DNA of 33,669 bases from IMG/VR virus record IMGVR_UViG_3300031841_003108, positions 1-33,669 of that record; one strand, written 5' to 3'. A model generated the notes under the pieces. The model ran no database searches. It was given only the letters and a program-made list of their open reading frames with translations, and was not told where the DNA came from. Shown piece by piece: positions 20,506 through 27,038 of the stretch (positions within the stretch are counted from its first letter, which is position 1; every line of letters begins with the position of its first letter). This stretch comes from a virus. Both the position numbers and the translations under genes were made by a program.

Positions 20506-21660
20506 TCAGTTGACCTCCTCATTGATGGTGAAGGCGGTGGTCACGAAGTCCTTATTCAGGTTGGCGAAACCAGCGTACAGCTGCCAGATCAGGATGATGA
20601 AGCGGCTGAAGTCGTCGTTGTTGTTGATAAGCACCTGGGCGTTGGGGCCACCGATGCCGACGCCAACGGCCTGAGGACCGAAGAACAGGCCAGCGGGGGT
20701 GTCGCGGGTTCCAGTAGCGGTGCCTGCACCAGTCAGGGTGGTGGTAGCGGTCTTGCTGGGGAAGTTGGTGGACTCGAAGAAGCGAACACCTTCGAACACG
20801 AAGCCGGAAGGCATCACGGGCTCGCCAGCAACGAACTGGGCTTGACCGTACTGACCGCCCTGGTACAGAGCAGCGTTAGGAGCGCTCATACCCATCAGGG
20901 GGTTGGGAGCACCCATGCCGGGGTAACGTGCCACTTCGCGGAAGCCGTCGTCAGCACGCAGATCCTTCATGAAGGAGGGATCAGCGATACAACGGTAGTA
21001 GCCGTCCTGGAACACAGGAACGTTACGCTTACGCAGGCTCTTAACAACGTTCAGAAGGTCAAACTTGACGTTGAACTTGAAGCGCTCAGCAGCGTATTCA
21101 GCGGCGGTATAGGTAGAAACGGTGACACCGGTCTTGGTGTGGTCGTTGGGGTAGTAGTAACCACCCTGGGTGTCGCCGGACTGACCACGGGACTCAGACT
21201 TGAACAGCTCGTCCAGGAACACACGATCGCGCCAACGACGGTAGTCGTCGAGCAGGGTCAGCGAACCGATGGACTGGTGGAACATGTTGAGGTTCCCGGT
21301 GTCCAGCAGCAGACGCTGAGCGGTCATGAGGGTCTCGCGAGCAATCTTGAAGGTGCTCGGGAGGTTGGTGTTGTTCGGGTCAGCAGGGCCGGTGTACTCA
21401 CGCAGAGACACAAGCACCTTGTCCTTGACGATGGAACGGCTGTTGGCAGTACCGATCGTCTGGTCTTGGGTACGCTCGCGGCTGGTCTTCGTGCCGGGGT
21501 TACCGAAGAAACGGTAACGATCCAGCTGCACGGTCTGACCAGGCTGCTTGGTAAAGTCGTGGACTACGACGGGCTCGCAAGCCATCTCCACGACATAAGC
21601 CGGGTGGGGGCGGTACAGTTCCGCACCCAACAGCTTGGGAAAGTCGTTATCGATGAACAT
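20506..21660 (-). CDS. Major capsid protein, HK97-fold (N4-gp56-like style)
   Basis: 384 residues: MFIDNDFPKLLGAELYRPHP, then EPVVVHDFTKQPGQTVQLDR, a helical region (STFKIARETLMTAQRLLLDT) and an insertion-like segment. NVVKSLRKRNVPVFQDGYYR with CIADPSFMKDLRADDGFREV resembles the peptide-domain signature of N4-gp56-type capsid proteins ('..YV.ii.P....DL..d..f'). The C-terminus (DDFSRFIILIWQLYAGFANL) is hydrophobic. The neighbouring scaffold candidate and portal support the assignment, as does the biased codon use that leaves almost no stops in the antisense frames. It is preceded by GGTTGAT-N8-GCTATAAT at 21744-21766. Assignment as capsid is strong; the subfamily is less certain. Confidence 0.88.
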   Translation of the reverse strand: MFIDNDFPKLLGAELYRPHPAYVVEMACEPVVVHDFTKQPGQTVQLDRYRFFGNPGTKTSRERTQDQTIGTANSRSIVKDKVLVSLREYTGPADPNNTNLPSTFKIARETLMTAQRLLLDTGNLNMFHQSIGSLTLLDDYRRWRDRVFLDELFKSESRGQSGDTQGGYYYPNDHTKTGVTVSTYTAAEYAAERFKFNVKFDLLNVVKSLRKRNVPVFQDGYYRCIADPSFMKDLRADDGFREVARYPGMGAPNPLMGMSAPNAALYQGGQYGQAQFVAGEPVMPSGFVFEGVRFFESTNFPSKTATTTLTGAGTATGTRDTPAGLFFGPQAVGVGIGGPNAQVLINNNDDFSRFIILIWQLYAGFANLNKDFVTTAFTINEEVN

Positions 21661-21789: not shown

Positions 21790-22059
21790 TTACGGCATCA
21801 AAGTGCGGTCAACAGCACGAGCACGGGGGTCAGGAGATCCGTCAATCATGTTGCCGGGGCTAAAGACAGTCGGAGGGACAGTGCCAATGCGACCGTAAGG
21901 ATTGAGCAGACCATCAGCAGGTTGGAGCGCAGGGCTCATGGCCTGGATCTCAGGATTAATAGGGCCTTCGGCGGCAGCTTGTTGTGCAGCGGCTTCTGCA
22001 ACAGCCTTTGCCATCAGGGCTTTCGAAAGGGCTTTCTTAGCTTTGCTGTTGTCCATCAT
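21790..22059 (-). CDS. Small hypothetical protein, Ala-rich helix (89 aa)
   Basis: 89 residues. It starts with two consecutive ATGs (MMDNSKAKKALSKALMAKAV), preceded by AAAGGACAAAA, and overlaps the preceding stop by four bases. Residues 5-32 form an Ala/Lys-rich helix. The rest is Pro/Gly-rich (INPEIQAMSPALQPADGLLN, PPTVFSPGNMIDGSPDPRAR). No family is recognised. Its place between scaffold candidate and major capsid gene suggests a head-assembly role. A 129-base spacer with promoter-like motif separates it from the capsid gene. Confidence 0.72.
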   Translation of the reverse strand: MMDNSKAKKALSKALMAKAVAEAAAQQAAAEGPINPEIQAMSPALQPADGLLNPYGRIGTVPPTVFSPGNMIDGSPDPRARAVDRTLMP

Positions 22060-22490
22060 TTTTGTCCTTTTTGATTAGGCATGGGGGCGTATCCCATCGG
22101 CAGCTGTCCGGTAGGAGGCATCATCGGGAGCAACTGATACTGCTGCTGCACTTGAATCTGGTTCTGGAACATCTCTGCCTGGCTCAGAGCACGTGGAGCT
22201 AAGAGGCCATTAGCAGGTAAAGGAGAACCGGGGAGATTGAGCTTGAGATAAGCGTTATCCAGATCGCGAGGCATGCGGGGCTGAGGAGCACGGGGATCCC
22301 CAACTTTTGCTTCCATGTCCTGCATTCGAACGGCTGCATATTCGTCAACGTTGCCAGACATGACTTGACGCGACGTGTCGCCAGCACCGAATTGAACAAG
22401 GCCGGGAGCACCAATCGGTCCACCAGCAGTTCCAATCGCTGCCAGGAACTGATCAGCTTTTTCTCTTGCTCCTGCCTTCTTCTTTGCCAT
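22056..22490 (-). CDS. Hypothetical head-region protein, Pro/Gln/Met-rich (144 aa)
   Basis: 144 residues: MAKKKAGAREKADQFLAAIG, a Gly/Pro stretch, DTSRQVMSGNVDEYAAVRMQ, RMPRDLDNAYLKLNLPGSPL, and a low-complexity C-terminus rich in Gln, Met and Pro (QNQIQVQQQYQLLPMMPPTG). No ribosome site is visible before the ATG. The gene lies just after a strong hairpin with a T-tract (22493-22528), and a TATAAATA octamer (22540-22547) lies just before that hairpin. The gene may thus start a new transcript. The function is unknown; a minor capsid or assembly protein is a reasonable guess given its neighbours. Confidence 0.72.
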   Translation of the reverse strand: MAKKKAGAREKADQFLAAIGTAGGPIGAPGLVQFGAGDTSRQVMSGNVDEYAAVRMQDMEAKVGDPRAPQPRMPRDLDNAYLKLNLPGSPLPANGLLAPRALSQAEMFQNQIQVQQQYQLLPMMPPTGQLPMGYAPMPNQKGQK

Positions 22491-22555: not shown

Positions 22556-23557
22556 TCACTCCATCACCAGGAGTTTGTTGCGGAACACCTCGGGGTTCTG
22601 CGCGGCGGAGTTCAGATAACGCCAGGCATTGGAGGGGTCACGATCGGCCAGGTTGCCGAAGCTGTTCCAGAAGTCGCCAGCGTTAGCGGGGGACTGGGGC
22701 TGGGGAGGAACGGGCATCTCAGGGCGCTGGGGAGCAACGCGCTGAACGGTGGGCTGCTGTTGGAACTGCTGGCCAACCTGCTGACCCTGAGGAGCAGCAG
22801 CTTCATCGGGGATGGGGTGGGGGCCATTCTCACCGAAGAACTCGCAGGTGTAGTCGGCGAGGACGTCGGGATCAGTCAGGATGGTCTCATAAGCTTTGTG
22901 CTCATTGGAGAGTTCCTGAAGCAGTTCACAAGCTTGAATCAGCTGCTGATTGGTTTGAATCAGAGCGTCTTCAACATCACAGGCATACTTATTGACGATC
23001 GCAGCGGCATCAGGACCGAAGTGATCAATAACCTCAAGACTTGCCTCGCTTACCCCGTTGGCGCGGAGCATTTCCGGGGTTATTTCCAGCGAAGTTTGGG
23101 AAGAGTTGCTGGAGTAAGCCTGGTTGTTGTTGATCCCAGGCGTAGAGGTCTGCATCCCCAGGTTGTTGAACTGGGTTGTTTGCTGGGAACCGTAGCTGGC
23201 CGGGTCGATTGCCTGGTTCGGATTCGATTGTTGACCCAGGGACGGGAATTGGACGGGCGAACTCAGGAGTCCGACCACCTTGTTGAACGCCTCCTTGTAA
23301 GGGTTGTCCGCTTGTTGGGGCGCCTGGTACTGCTGGGGGCTGTACTGAGTAGGGATTGAGGCCGGTGCCTGCGTCCCCATCTGGGCCTGCATTACTGGGG
23401 CTGGGGCCGTCACCTGTTGGTAAGGCGCCACCCATTGCTGATTGGTAGAAACCGCCGGAGCCTGGGCCGCCGTCTGCGCTGGAGCCGCGTAGCTGGTCGG
23501 TTGGGTCGGGGATACTTGGGGTGCCGATTGGGTCGGCATTGCGGTATCGGCCTGCAT
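22556..23557 (-). CDS. Probable capsid scaffold; start overprinted on portal gene
   Basis: 333 residues. The ATG at 23557 is preceded by AGAGGT (23563-23568) with five bases of spacing, although both lie deep inside the portal gene. Residues 1-174 are encoded in a second frame over the last 524 bases of portal and are Gln/Pro/Ala/Thr-rich. Residues 160-258 are outside the overlap from 175 on and helical: ITPEMLRANGVSEASLEVID, EDALIQTNQQLIQACELLQE, and ILTDPDVLADYTCEFFGENG, a pattern I associate with phage scaffold-type proteins. The C-terminus is again Pro/Gln-rich, then NAGDFWNSFGNLADRDPSNA. A scaffold role follows from its position between portal and capsid and its helical, low-complexity nature. 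A terminator follows. Confidence 0.8.
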   Translation of the reverse strand: MQADTAMPTQSAPQVSPTQPTSYAAPAQTAAQAPAVSTNQQWVAPYQQVTAPAPVMQAQMGTQAPASIPTQYSPQQYQAPQQADNPYKEAFNKVVGLLSSPVQFPSLGQQSNPNQAIDPASYGSQQTTQFNNLGMQTSTPGINNNQAYSSNSSQTSLEITPEMLRANGVSEASLEVIDHFGPDAAAIVNKYACDVEDALIQTNQQLIQACELLQELSNEHKAYETILTDPDVLADYTCEFFGENGPHPIPDEAAAPQGQQVGQQFQQQPTVQRVAPQRPEMPVPPQPQSPANAGDFWNSFGNLADRDPSNAWRYLNSAAQNPEVFRNKLLVME

Positions 23558-25289
23558 AAGTTACCTCTTTTTGTAGGCTTTCGAGTGTGCGATAAAGGAA
23601 GGGGGTGAGATCAAGTCTCGGATCCGCAGCCATTGGAAGGTTTGGTTGCTGCGGATGTGGTGTCCGCATCTCTTGATTGATTAGATCAATGAATGCGGAG
23701 TAAGCCCTCTGTACTTCCCCTACCACACGGAATGGGAAACCGGAGAGCATGCCCGCGATCTCGTCATCCGTTTTAGAAGGGAATAGATACTTCAGTGCTT
23801 CTATGCTATCAACTCCTAACTCTTGCAAGTTTCTGGTGAAGATAGACTGGTTGAGTTTATCCTGTGTTGTGTCTTCATACACAGGACCTAACCAACGCCA
23901 TTGAATGGTTCTATCACCATCCGGCGCAAGACCTAAAACACCGTCCGGAATCTCCTGCTCTTCGATTGCTTTATCAATCGCAGCTTGAAGTTTCTTTTCG
24001 TACCGAGCTTTTGCACGGTCGTATTTCTCAAGGTCTTTATCGTCAGGCTCCTCAGGGAGCTCGGGATACTTGATCCCGCTCTCGTAGGCCAGGGACTTAC
24101 GGAAGATTTGCTCTTCCTGGAAGACGATCAGCTCCAAGCAGCGGCAGATGCCATAGGTGTAGAGCTGAAGGCACTTCTTCTTGGCCGTGGCGCTGACCCG
24201 TCCGTATGCAGACTTGTATTCAGTCGCAGTGACGTTCGTAATGCTCAGGTCGTCGATACCACCTAAAGCAAGGCGGATCTCACTCCGGAGCTGCTCGGCA
24301 TAACGAGCCTGGTCAGTGCTAACCGCGTTCGGCGTGATGAAGCCGACACGGTCGGTGGGCTCCAGGTTTGCGATGACGCGGGGGACACGCATGCCGGAGC
24401 CGGGCTTGCCGTTGTACCCAGGCGATTGCCTGGTTACGTTGTCCTGCTTGTAGGTCGAGCTGGAGAGGAAGAACTCAGACTCAAAGCCGGACTGGCTGGA
24501 GATGCTTGGGCGCTGAGTCGCGTCCTTCTGGTCGAACTCAACAATGTCCTGCTTGGGGCGGGAAGAGAGCAGGGTGGGATTACCAAAGAACGAAAGGTTT
24601 GCCCGGATGTTCTTGACCATCTCGTCATGAGCGACGATCTGGTTTGCAAGCCATTCGAACTCACCGCTGCCCTCGGTGCCAAAAGCATCAGGGTTGTTGA
24701 GAACCTCCACGCATGGAATGAACTCCATGGTGTTCTTCAACACCTTCTTGTCGGTGAACGGGAAGTCCATCGCAGGGTTGTCGAAGCTGACTTCCTGCTC
24801 GCTGTGGTACTCCTCAATGGTGTCCGCAGTGATCCGCAGGCGCATGTAACGCTTGTCGGTGTTCAGACCAACGCCCTGGAAACCACGCGAAGACTTGACC
24901 TTATATGGATAGATGATGATGACTTCTTCTAAGTCACCTTCTGGTGAGTAGTAAGTACGGTACGAATCGCGGTCGAACCAGTAAATACGATATGTCTTCT
25001 GTGTAGGCCGGATGTAGAAAAGACCCTTACCGAAAGCGAGGAATCGGTCCCAGATCGAATCTAAGCGTGCGTCCAGTTTGTTGAACTTGATGACCTGCTG
25101 GATAAAGTCGTACCGCTGAGTGCCGAAGTTATCCTGCATCGGATAGAACTCCACACCTTGGCGGATCCCAAACATCTTCATTTGGGACAGGTGGGCGTTC
25201 ACCAGCATGGTGTCCGCAGGGCCTGTACTGTCGCGTGAAACTACCGACTTCAGGATAGATTCAAGCTGTGATTTAGCACTATCGCCCAT
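23034..25289 (-). CDS. Portal protein with long low-complexity C-terminal tail
   Basis: 751 residues. The core (about 1-570) reads as a portal: MGDSAKSQLESILKSVVSRD, then a region YWFDRDSYRTYYSPEGDLEE, a long central part with LANQIVAHDEMVKNIRANLS and ARYAEQLRSEIRLALGGIDD, and a helix-rich stretch up to RYEKKLQAAIDKAIEEQEIP and the clip-like QWRWLGPVYEDTTQDKLNQS. From about 578 the protein becomes Gly/Pro/Gln-rich (SSADGGPGSGGFYQSAMGGA, GVQQGGRTPEFARPIPVPGS) and ends basic (QRGKRGKS). That tail is co-encoded with the N-terminal half of the next gene in another frame. The portal dodecamer is the channel through which DNA is packaged. The identification rests on position after TerL, length and fold style. 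Confidence 0.85.
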   Translation of the reverse strand: MGDSAKSQLESILKSVVSRDSTGPADTMLVNAHLSQMKMFGIRQGVEFYPMQDNFGTQRYDFIQQVIKFNKLDARLDSIWDRFLAFGKGLFYIRPTQKTYRIYWFDRDSYRTYYSPEGDLEEVIIIYPYKVKSSRGFQGVGLNTDKRYMRLRITADTIEEYHSEQEVSFDNPAMDFPFTDKKVLKNTMEFIPCVEVLNNPDAFGTEGSGEFEWLANQIVAHDEMVKNIRANLSFFGNPTLLSSRPKQDIVEFDQKDATQRPSISSQSGFESEFFLSSSTYKQDNVTRQSPGYNGKPGSGMRVPRVIANLEPTDRVGFITPNAVSTDQARYAEQLRSEIRLALGGIDDLSITNVTATEYKSAYGRVSATAKKKCLQLYTYGICRCLELIVFQEEQIFRKSLAYESGIKYPELPEEPDDKDLEKYDRAKARYEKKLQAAIDKAIEEQEIPDGVLGLAPDGDRTIQWRWLGPVYEDTTQDKLNQSIFTRNLQELGVDSIEALKYLFPSKTDDEIAGMLSGFPFRVVGEVQRAYSAFIDLINQEMRTPHPQQPNLPMAADPRLDLTPFLYRTLESLQKEVTYAGRYRNADPIGTPSIPDPTDQLRGSSADGGPGSGGFYQSAMGGALPTGDGPSPSNAGPDGDAGTGLNPYSVQPPAVPGAPTSGQPLQGGVQQGGRTPEFARPIPVPGSTIESEPGNRPGQLRFPANNPVQQPGDADLYAWDQQQPGLLQQLFPNFAGNNPGNAPRQRGKRGKS

Positions 25290-25514: not shown

Positions 25515-27038
25515 TCAATACTCTAACTCCAGTTTGCCTCTTGTCATTAATCCGTTGCACAACCAAACCAAAGCGTCGACGCAGTCATCGTGTGAGCTCA
25601 CGCCAAAGTTGACGATCTCGTCAGTAAGAGCCTGGAATTTACGATATTTGTTGAAAATTATCTTCCGTTGCTCGAACAGACCCATGATGCCACGGAAACG
25701 TGCAACTTTATCGCCTCTGAAACCCTTGACCGGATGCCAGTGCAGGTTGTAGAGACCATGTTCTCCAAGACAGATACGTTTGAAGTCAGCTTCCAATGAA
25801 GCCTGGTAGGCCACAGCTTCTGACCAAATCTCAACATTGGCTCCTGAAGGGAAGTATTGATCTTTTTCTTTGTGCACCACACCCCACTCTTCCATCATTT
25901 CCATGATTGCCTCTAACTTCTCGAGGTTTCCCATGATCCTGAGACGTTTGCAATCGATGATATGAATCTTCCCTCCCACTCGCCCTCCCATCACGAAGAC
26001 CGTGTAGTCGTTTCGTTCCCTGACACCTGCAGAAAGGTCAACGCCGACTCCCAGACAATCGAATTCAGTGGCGATGTTTCCTTTGACGATCAGATCAGGA
26101 GAGAGCGATAGCTCGCTCGTTTGGACGACCTGATTTTGGTACTGGAAGCTAAAGGCGACCGGAGCTTGGCGACGGCGATCTTGAAGGTATTCAAGAGACC
26201 ACATTTCAGGCCAATAGGATTTTTCGTCCCCGTTTTCGTCTACCGAAATTGCAGATTGGACGATTTGCACCCAGTCATTGGCTGGAATGAAAGTGGAGTT
26301 GTGAATGTCGTCATGACGAAATCGGGTTCCGAGGCAAATCGCCCGTCCGCCCTCAAACATCGTGGGAACAATAACCGAGTTCCAGTTGTCCTCCATTGCT
26401 TGCCGGATGTCCCGGTTCTTGATGTCGTCCGCACTCTTGATCGCGTCATCGATGATACAGAGGTGTGAACGCTTGGAGGTCACAGCACCTTTGAGACCTG
26501 CACAACACACCGTGAACTCTTCTTCACCGGTTGACTTGATCCCAGCGAACTTCCAATCAATACTCCAGTACTCGTTGGAATTGATGCCCTTTGCGATCTT
26601 GACGGTGGGAAAGATCTCTTTGTAATTCTTACTTTCTTCAATGATCCTCTTGATTGCTGCGCTTTTGGGTCGTGCCACATCAACCGTGTAGGAGATGTAG
26701 AGGATTTTCAAAGGTTTCTTCGCCATGGCATGGACACCAACAGCCCAAGCCGTGTACAAACCGAGGATCGTGGATTTAGCGCTACCGCGTGGTGCCAGGA
26801 TGTCGATGTTGGGGCCACCGATACCAATCAGACACTCGCTGTCATCTCCGGTGCACAGGTACTTATGCCACTCCTGGTGGTGCGCTGCAGGAGGTTTATC
26901 TCCGACTACATCACAGAAATATGCAAAGTCTTTACGCGCCCGTTCGACATCAATATTCGATGACTTCTTTACAACACGCTGCTGTGCTGCAGCCCGTGCA
27001 GTACGTCGATAGACGCTATAAATACTAGTTCCTGCCAT
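25515..27038 (-). CDS. terL: Terminase large subunit (ATPase-nuclease)
   Basis: 507 residues, a normal TerL length. The Walker A motif is APRGSAKST at residues 82-90 (K88). Walker B is LCIIDD at 193-198 with the acidic pair D197-D198. A coupling-type motif follows at about 235-238 (CLGT). The nuclease half starts near residue 330 with VGVDLSAG (D334), has a second acidic position near E403 (VEIWSE) and ends with HDDCVDALVW (D484, D485, D488), the typical RNase H-like metal ligands. The protein packages DNA into the procapsid by ATP hydrolysis at the portal and cuts the concatemer. It is flanked by the AbrB-like gene and portal downstream and a 94-residue gene and the TerS candidate upstream. 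Confidence 0.95.
   Translation of the reverse strand: MAGTSIYSVYRRTARAAAQQRVVKKSSNIDVERARKDFAYFCDVVGDKPPAAHHQEWHKYLCTGDDSECLIGIGGPNIDILAPRGSAKSTILGLYTAWAVGVHAMAKKPLKILYISYTVDVARPKSAAIKRIIEESKNYKEIFPTVKIAKGINSNEYWSIDWKFAGIKSTGEEEFTVCCAGLKGAVTSKRSHLCIIDDAIKSADDIKNRDIRQAMEDNWNSVIVPTMFEGGRAICLGTRFRHDDIHNSTFIPANDWVQIVQSAISVDENGDEKSYWPEMWSLEYLQDRRRQAPVAFSFQYQNQVVQTSELSLSPDLIVKGNIATEFDCLGVGVDLSAGVRERNDYTVFVMGGRVGGKIHIIDCKRLRIMGNLEKLEAIMEMMEEWGVVHKEKDQYFPSGANVEIWSEAVAYQASLEADFKRICLGEHGLYNLHWHPVKGFRGDKVARFRGIMGLFEQRKIIFNKYRKFQALTDEIVNFGVSSHDDCVDALVWLCNGLMTRGKLELEY

Follow-up and report, generated by a model that had tools for sequence, protein, structure and literature searches.

Long out-of-frame overlaps between genes are usually attributed to a lack of genome space. 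In phage phiX174, the internal scaffolding protein B is encoded out of frame inside gene A. Same-strand viral overlaps with a +1 shift have a median length of 14 nt (interquartile range 8-26) across 12,609 genomes (PMC8903798), and the gene overlaps of phiX174 have been reviewed (PMC8227390). A second type, in which a scaffold gene is nested in frame within the head protease gene, is common (lambda C/Nu3 type; KS10, PMC2628397). In phages T7 and P-SSP7 (gp8/gp9), the portal, scaffold and capsid genes follow one another on the same strand, with a 99-nt gap that contains promoter phi9 between portal and scaffold in T7, and a 1-nt overlap in P-SSP7.

The locus described here lies in a 33,669-nt stretch of viral DNA (IMG/VR record IMGVR_UViG_3300031841_003108; hereafter the window). 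It has the T7 and P-SSP7 gene order and strand arrangement, but the portal gene and the probable scaffold gene share 446-641 nt in the window and its relatives, far longer than the surveyed overlaps of the same shift and strand. As in the lambda C/Nu3 type, the scaffold start is located inside another head gene; there, however, both genes are read in one frame and the scaffold forms part of the protease protein, whereas here the two products have no residue in common. The out-of-frame arrangement is shared with phiX174, a 5.4-kb ssDNA phage under size pressure in which the partner is a replication protein. In contrast, the present virus is a tailed phage of approximately 80 kb, and the partner is the portal with which the scaffold candidate would assemble. 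Literature searches, mainly of openly accessible papers, turned up no tailed phage described as having portal and scaffold genes that overlap out of frame. Dual-coding genes as such are known; what is unusual here is the length, the age, the partners and the large genome.

Gene context and identity of the portal protein

The features discussed below are as follows (window coordinates).

25515-27038, minus strand: terminase large subunit (TerL) gene; phrog_38 (E 2e-79), PF17289
23034-25289, minus strand: portal gene, 751 amino acids; stop codon at 23034-23036
22556-23557, minus strand: probable scaffolding protein gene, 333 amino acids; ATG at 23555-23557, +1 frame
23034-23557, minus strand: proposed dual-coding segment, 524 nt; portal residues 578-751 and scaffold candidate residues 1-174
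23563-23568, minus strand: ribosome-binding site AGAGGT, 5 nt 5' of the scaffold ATG
23561-23563, minus strand: in-frame TAA of the scaffold frame, one codon 5' of the scaffold ATG
23558-23870, minus strand: putative cis-acting element in the portal gene; reduced synonymous change, alternative frames closed
23591-23724, minus strand: predicted RNA structure (clade A), inside the cis-constrained stretch
20506-21660, minus strand: major capsid protein gene; phrog_1357 (E 4e-15)

A sequence-only reading of the window had reported the two open reading frames, their 524-base overlap, the portal stop, the internal start and the AGAGGT motif, and all of these coordinates proved exact on re-derivation. 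The portal gene adjoins TerL, with a single 60-residue ORF between them, and the scaffold candidate gene is positioned between the portal and major capsid genes. Codon positions 1, 2 and 3 of the scaffold ORF correspond to portal positions 2, 3 and 1.

The 751-residue protein matches phrog_20475 (E 2e-210) and, weakly, phrog_64, 'portal protein' (E 1e-4). Although the structural model is of low confidence (mean pLDDT 41.5), a Foldseek search with it gave an E value of 4e-5 to the portal of cyanophage P-SCSP1u, and every match at E<=0.001 was a portal. Alignment of the model using VIA-align gave a best Z of 9.1 (rmsd 7.2 over 190 aligned residues), and all 50 matches listed were portals or portal complexes. 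The upstream protein is thus, by predicted fold, a portal, as had been proposed from sequence. The family phrog_20475, labelled 'virion structural protein', is by the same fold comparison the portal of this lineage.

The part that aligns with solved portals spans residues ~52-462, with further predicted helices up to residue ~580. Beyond a core of approximately residues 1-577, the tail (578-751) is a low-complexity Gly/Pro sequence with a basic end (APRQRGKRGKS), predicted to be disordered apart from short helices in the low-confidence model. It is reasonable to hold that portal cores of this kind can do without such a tail, given that in this model the aligned part and the helices end at about residues 460 and 580, respectively, the latter coinciding with the beginning of the overlap.

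The overlap is conserved across four clades

Four viral-contig scans and one scan of genome contigs supplied the relatives; with the window and Synechococcus phage S-EIV1 included, 330 loci encode a portal of this family. The overlap was counted in the 323 loci whose portal gene is complete at its 3' end, which hold 277 distinct overlap sequences. These fall into four groups: A (containing the window), B (S-EIV1), C (L166-like) and D (L170-like). S-EIV1 is the sole isolate and the window's only relative in the phage collection, with a portal identity of 51%; the clade C and D portals found in one of these scans are 42-46% identical to that of the window. The lineage comprises widespread cyanobacterial viruses from fresh and marine waters, with a genome of approximately 80 kb. 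Phage contigs of the lineage also occur in genome bins labelled Bacteroidetes, Euryarchaeota, Crocinitomicaceae and Blastopirellula (L163-L170), as contamination of metagenome-assembled genomes.

It was found that the +1 overlap occurs at the same place in 323/323 loci and in all four clades, with a length of 515-539 nt in clade A (83 loci), 545-641 nt in B (81 loci), 458-524 nt in C (77 loci) and 446-536 nt in D (82 loci). The clades contain 6, 18, 18 and 22 distinct overlap lengths, respectively, and every difference is a multiple of 3. Stops or frameshifts in relatives, which the sequence-only reading had named as evidence that would count against it, were seen in the overlap of none of these loci. 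Of the remaining alternative frames on the two strands, none is open throughout in clades A and B. A 199-residue antisense ORF over the overlap (22760-23359, plus strand) was rejected, as it is not conserved. One metagenome-assembled contig (L165, 6001-8399) carries portal residues ~246-300 twice, together with a frame break in the portal core; this is probably a misassembly and leaves the overlap unbroken.

An open +1 frame was not accepted as sufficient evidence on its own. Owing to its Gly/Pro-rich composition, the portal tail retained an open +1 frame in 28% of 20,000 synonymous recodings; with shuffled tail codons this frame was open in 0.35%, and recoding of the scaffold left the portal frame open in 0/20,000. 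Openness being unremarkable by composition, relatives were needed, and it is conservation among them that provides the decisive sequence evidence for an overlap not due to chance. Judged by its distribution, the arrangement is older than the split of at least four clades. No outgroup relatives that lack the overlap were found. The next relatives by terminase are ~21-25% identical and include phage MW202796, in which the portal gene, by annotation alone, lacks a long overlap with the gene that follows.

Both proteins retain short motifs from clade to clade. On the portal side, the last 15 residues are on average basic in every clade (mean net charge +4.7 to +7.3), and within the overlap the scaffold frame encodes the conserved motif NP[WY]xxAF.

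The downstream protein is probably a scaffolding protein

The model of the 333-residue protein has a disordered, Q/A/P/S-rich N-terminus with one short helix (residues 88-99), which falls within the conserved stretch NPYKEAFNKVV, followed by a long helix (184-228) and C-terminal helices (293-331). The helices have pLDDT values of ~56-88, but the pTM is 0.21. No homologue of this protein was found in PHROGs, Pfam, NCBIfam or PDB sequences; a PDB sequence search with portal and scaffold profiles gave no relative, and profile comparison with T7 gp9 and P-SSP7 gp8/gp9 gave nothing significant. On the basis of its position, size and predicted helices, we consider the downstream protein likely to be the scaffold.

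The main alternative is that it is a different head-assembly or ejection protein, which would leave the dual coding unaffected. This would agree with the lack of family or fold support for a scaffold and with the presence of other uncharacterised proteins between the scaffold candidate and the capsid gene, but it is the less probable reading by some way: the gene is located between portal and capsid as in T7 and P-SSP7, the length is similar to that of their scaffolds (333 versus 307 and 265 residues), and the model places a long helix in the centre and further helices at the C-terminus.

In the window, a 144-residue protein with a Met/Pro/Gln-rich end and no family match is encoded between the scaffold candidate and the capsid gene (22056-22490, minus strand); it was not found in clade B pairs. 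In S-EIV1 (L081, 7733-8209), the interval encodes a Gly/Ala-rich protein, also without a family match, that looks different from that of the window.

Both reading frames are under purifying selection

Divergence was measured on phylogenetically independent pairs within each group, and for dN/dS changes were split by their effect in each of the two frames. In clade A, portal codon positions 1, 2 and 3 diverge by 0.033, 0.014 and 0.220 in the core and 0.081, 0.025 and 0.059 in the overlap. The corresponding values for the scaffold candidate are 0.054, 0.034 and 0.242 outside the overlap and 0.025, 0.059 and 0.081 within it. Third positions of both genes are thus approximately three- to fourfold less free in the clade A overlap. 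The order of positions also flips there: portal position 1 (scaffold position 3) varies more than portal position 3, as predicted for a second reading frame. Clades B, C and D show the same pattern, with a smaller drop in D. From core to overlap, portal third-position divergence falls from 0.220 to 0.059 (A), 0.243 to 0.075 (B), 0.333 to 0.128 (C) and 0.343 to 0.172 (D), and that of the scaffold candidate, from the unshared part to the overlap, falls from 0.242 to 0.081, 0.217 to 0.122, 0.303 to 0.139 and 0.326 to 0.201, respectively.

In the overlap, dN/dS of the +1 frame is 0.24, 0.24, 0.35 and 0.44 in clades A, B, C and D. In the portal core, the same frame gives 0.77-0.84, and no 170-codon window outside the overlap gives less than 0.63. 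The portal frame has a dN/dS of 0.38, 0.51, 0.45 and 0.54 in the overlaps of A, B, C and D, compared with 0.04-0.09 in the core; the upper bound for the clade B tail (0.70) is inside the range of non-coding windows (low end 0.63). Codon-position and synonymous-rate tests on both frames, proposed in the sequence-only reading, therefore point to purifying selection on both in every clade, with the scaffold frame more constrained and the selection on the portal tail weaker.

A rival reading is that only the scaffold frame is selected, with the portal tail tolerated as read-through provided it contains no stops. The portal dN/dS, far higher for the tail than for the core, and the low-complexity, predicted disordered nature of the tail would both fit. 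We nevertheless regard this as improbable, as variation at scaffold third positions is 1.6- to 3-fold lower within the overlap than across the unshared part, the point estimates of portal dN/dS lie below the non-coding-frame level in all clades, and the tail motifs IPxPG, GDADL and the basic C-terminus persist across clades.

A putative cis-acting element precedes the scaffold start

In clades A and B, the portal synonymous rate drops from ~0.25 to 0.02-0.14 over the ~300 nt 5' of the scaffold start; the same stretch shows a fall from 0.38 to 0.14-0.26 in clade C and a weaker dip in D. All alternative frames are closed in this stretch, and terminase gene controls show no comparable dip. In clade A, a stable RNA fold is predicted at 23591-23724, with a z of about -3.2 at its 3' half; 98.6% of cells are paired, compared with 37-57% in slid controls, and there are three double changes in two pairs, few but consistent. 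The fold predicted for clade B differs, but includes a hairpin at a similar place. An Rfam search gave no match, and a consensus promoter scan found none near 23557-23900. The ~300-nt stretch is probably a cis-acting element and may control the internal gene; its position resembles that of T7 promoter phi9. A block at 23791-23819 (TTAGG-GTTGATAGCAT-GAAGCACTGAA) is near-identical in clades A and B, and has no second copy in the window.

Part of the synonymous constraint in the overlap may come from a nucleic-acid element that begins in this upstream stretch. It is very unlikely, though, that such an element (RNA structure, promoter or packaging site) accounts for the depressed variation of the overlap as a whole. 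The synonymous depression 5' of the overlap is real, with closed frames and a plausible RNA fold, but within the overlap the position order flips, which a second frame predicts and a nucleic-acid element does not, no sequence has the frame closed, and the indels are all multiples of 3.

Translation start of the scaffold candidate

The start region of clade A reads AAAAAGAGGTAAC[CT]T-ATG, and AGAGGTAAC[CT]TATG is near-invariant there. In clade B it reads AAAAGGAGATGAGTT-ATG with AAGGAG as ribosome-binding site, and in clade D AAGGAGTTAAGTTACA-GTG with AAGGAG retained; in clade C, the ribosome-binding site is weak, a less marked purine stretch. In clade D (for example L170, 4005), the ATG is now ACA and a GTG one codon further is used. 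A stop in the scaffold frame is found 5' of the start in 315 of the 323 loci, one codon away in 232 and two codons away in 83. Together with the conserved start codon, this bears out the earlier placing of the translation start at 23557. It also means that in most phages the scaffold frame cannot be entered from upstream, which makes independent internal initiation the simplest route.

The near upstream stop also counts against programmed +1 frameshifting, which would give a portal-scaffold fusion and no separate scaffold. The frames are indeed +1 related, and an A-run (CAAAAAGAGG) is found 5' of the junction in clade A, but this run is not conserved in clades C and D, any earlier shift would terminate at the in-frame stop, and the ribosome-binding site and start codon are conserved. 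A scaffold is moreover normally required in excess over the 12 portal copies. We therefore hold out very little prospect for frameshifting; internal initiation, by inference from the conserved signals, fits.

Least probable of all is that translation is confined to the portal frame, the +1 openness arising from composition and the downstream protein starting later: the 28% openness after recoding and the S-EIV1 annotation, which places the downstream ORF start 3' of the portal stop, would agree with this, but it is disfavoured at the sequence level by the open frame in 323/323 loci, the 2- to 4-fold reduction in portal synonymous change, the +1-frame dN/dS of 0.24-0.44 and the conserved ribosome-binding site, start, upstream stop and NP[WY]xxAF motif.

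In S-EIV1 (KJ410740.1; L081, 6751-7725), the second gene is annotated as a 402-nt ORF that begins only 3' of the portal stop. An ATG with its AAGGAG stands where expected in this genome and the +1 frame is open from there on, and by this comparison the annotation is without the first part of the scaffold candidate. The S-EIV1 major capsid gene (L081, 8248-9474; record 60859-61983, plus strand) is annotated as an antisense ORF and a fragment.

Proposed mechanism and origin

Taken together, these data make it very probable that the segment is dual-coding, with both proteins made by separate initiation and kept by selection. A single mRNA would carry the portal gene. Ribosomes from the portal start codon would read to 23034, adding the disordered, Gly/Pro-rich, basic-ended tail, while others would initiate from the ribosome-binding site inside the portal gene and its ATG (23557), yielding the 333-residue scaffold candidate. 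Scaffold residues 1-174 would form a mostly disordered Q/A/P/S-rich arm with one short helix, and the portal tail may be directed into the head interior, where the scaffold sits. In T7, the portal C-termini form a crown inside the capsid (PMC6702177). In the P22 procapsid, the C-terminal portal barrel lacks structure, and the portal is bound by the scaffold, which sits on it (PMC12005531). By analogy with the T7 crown and the P22 scaffold placement, both arms would occupy the same space.

As for origin, the portal is ~215 residues longer than that of T7 (751 versus 536, and 522 in P-SSP7), an excess of about the tail length plus 40 residues, whereas the scaffold candidate is of normal size compared with T7 and P-SSP7. 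The oversized portal and the scaffold-frame stop just 5' of the start favour the portal tail as the newcomer, and we lean towards this tail being the later addition of the two frames. The portal gene may formerly have ended beside the scaffold start, its stop being lost by a frame change that added the tail. Codon usage did not separate the frames as a test of age, with no consistent difference in the four clades.

A further proposal is tentative and, in our estimation, rather unlikely: that the disordered arms bind each other or a common partner in the procapsid as a nucleation complex, with the RNA element setting the scaffold excess. If true, portal and scaffold would be genetically locked, neither exchangeable by recombination without the other.

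This virus of approximately 80 kb, with no need to save space, keeps the overlap down to ~42% portal identity. A portal and a neighbouring head gene can thus be locked together genetically, and the locus offers a natural experiment in which two disordered protein segments evolve under mutual constraint. The annotation of the sole isolate, S-EIV1, is corrected, and the cis constraint 5' of the internal start makes control of the portal-to-scaffold ratio directly testable.
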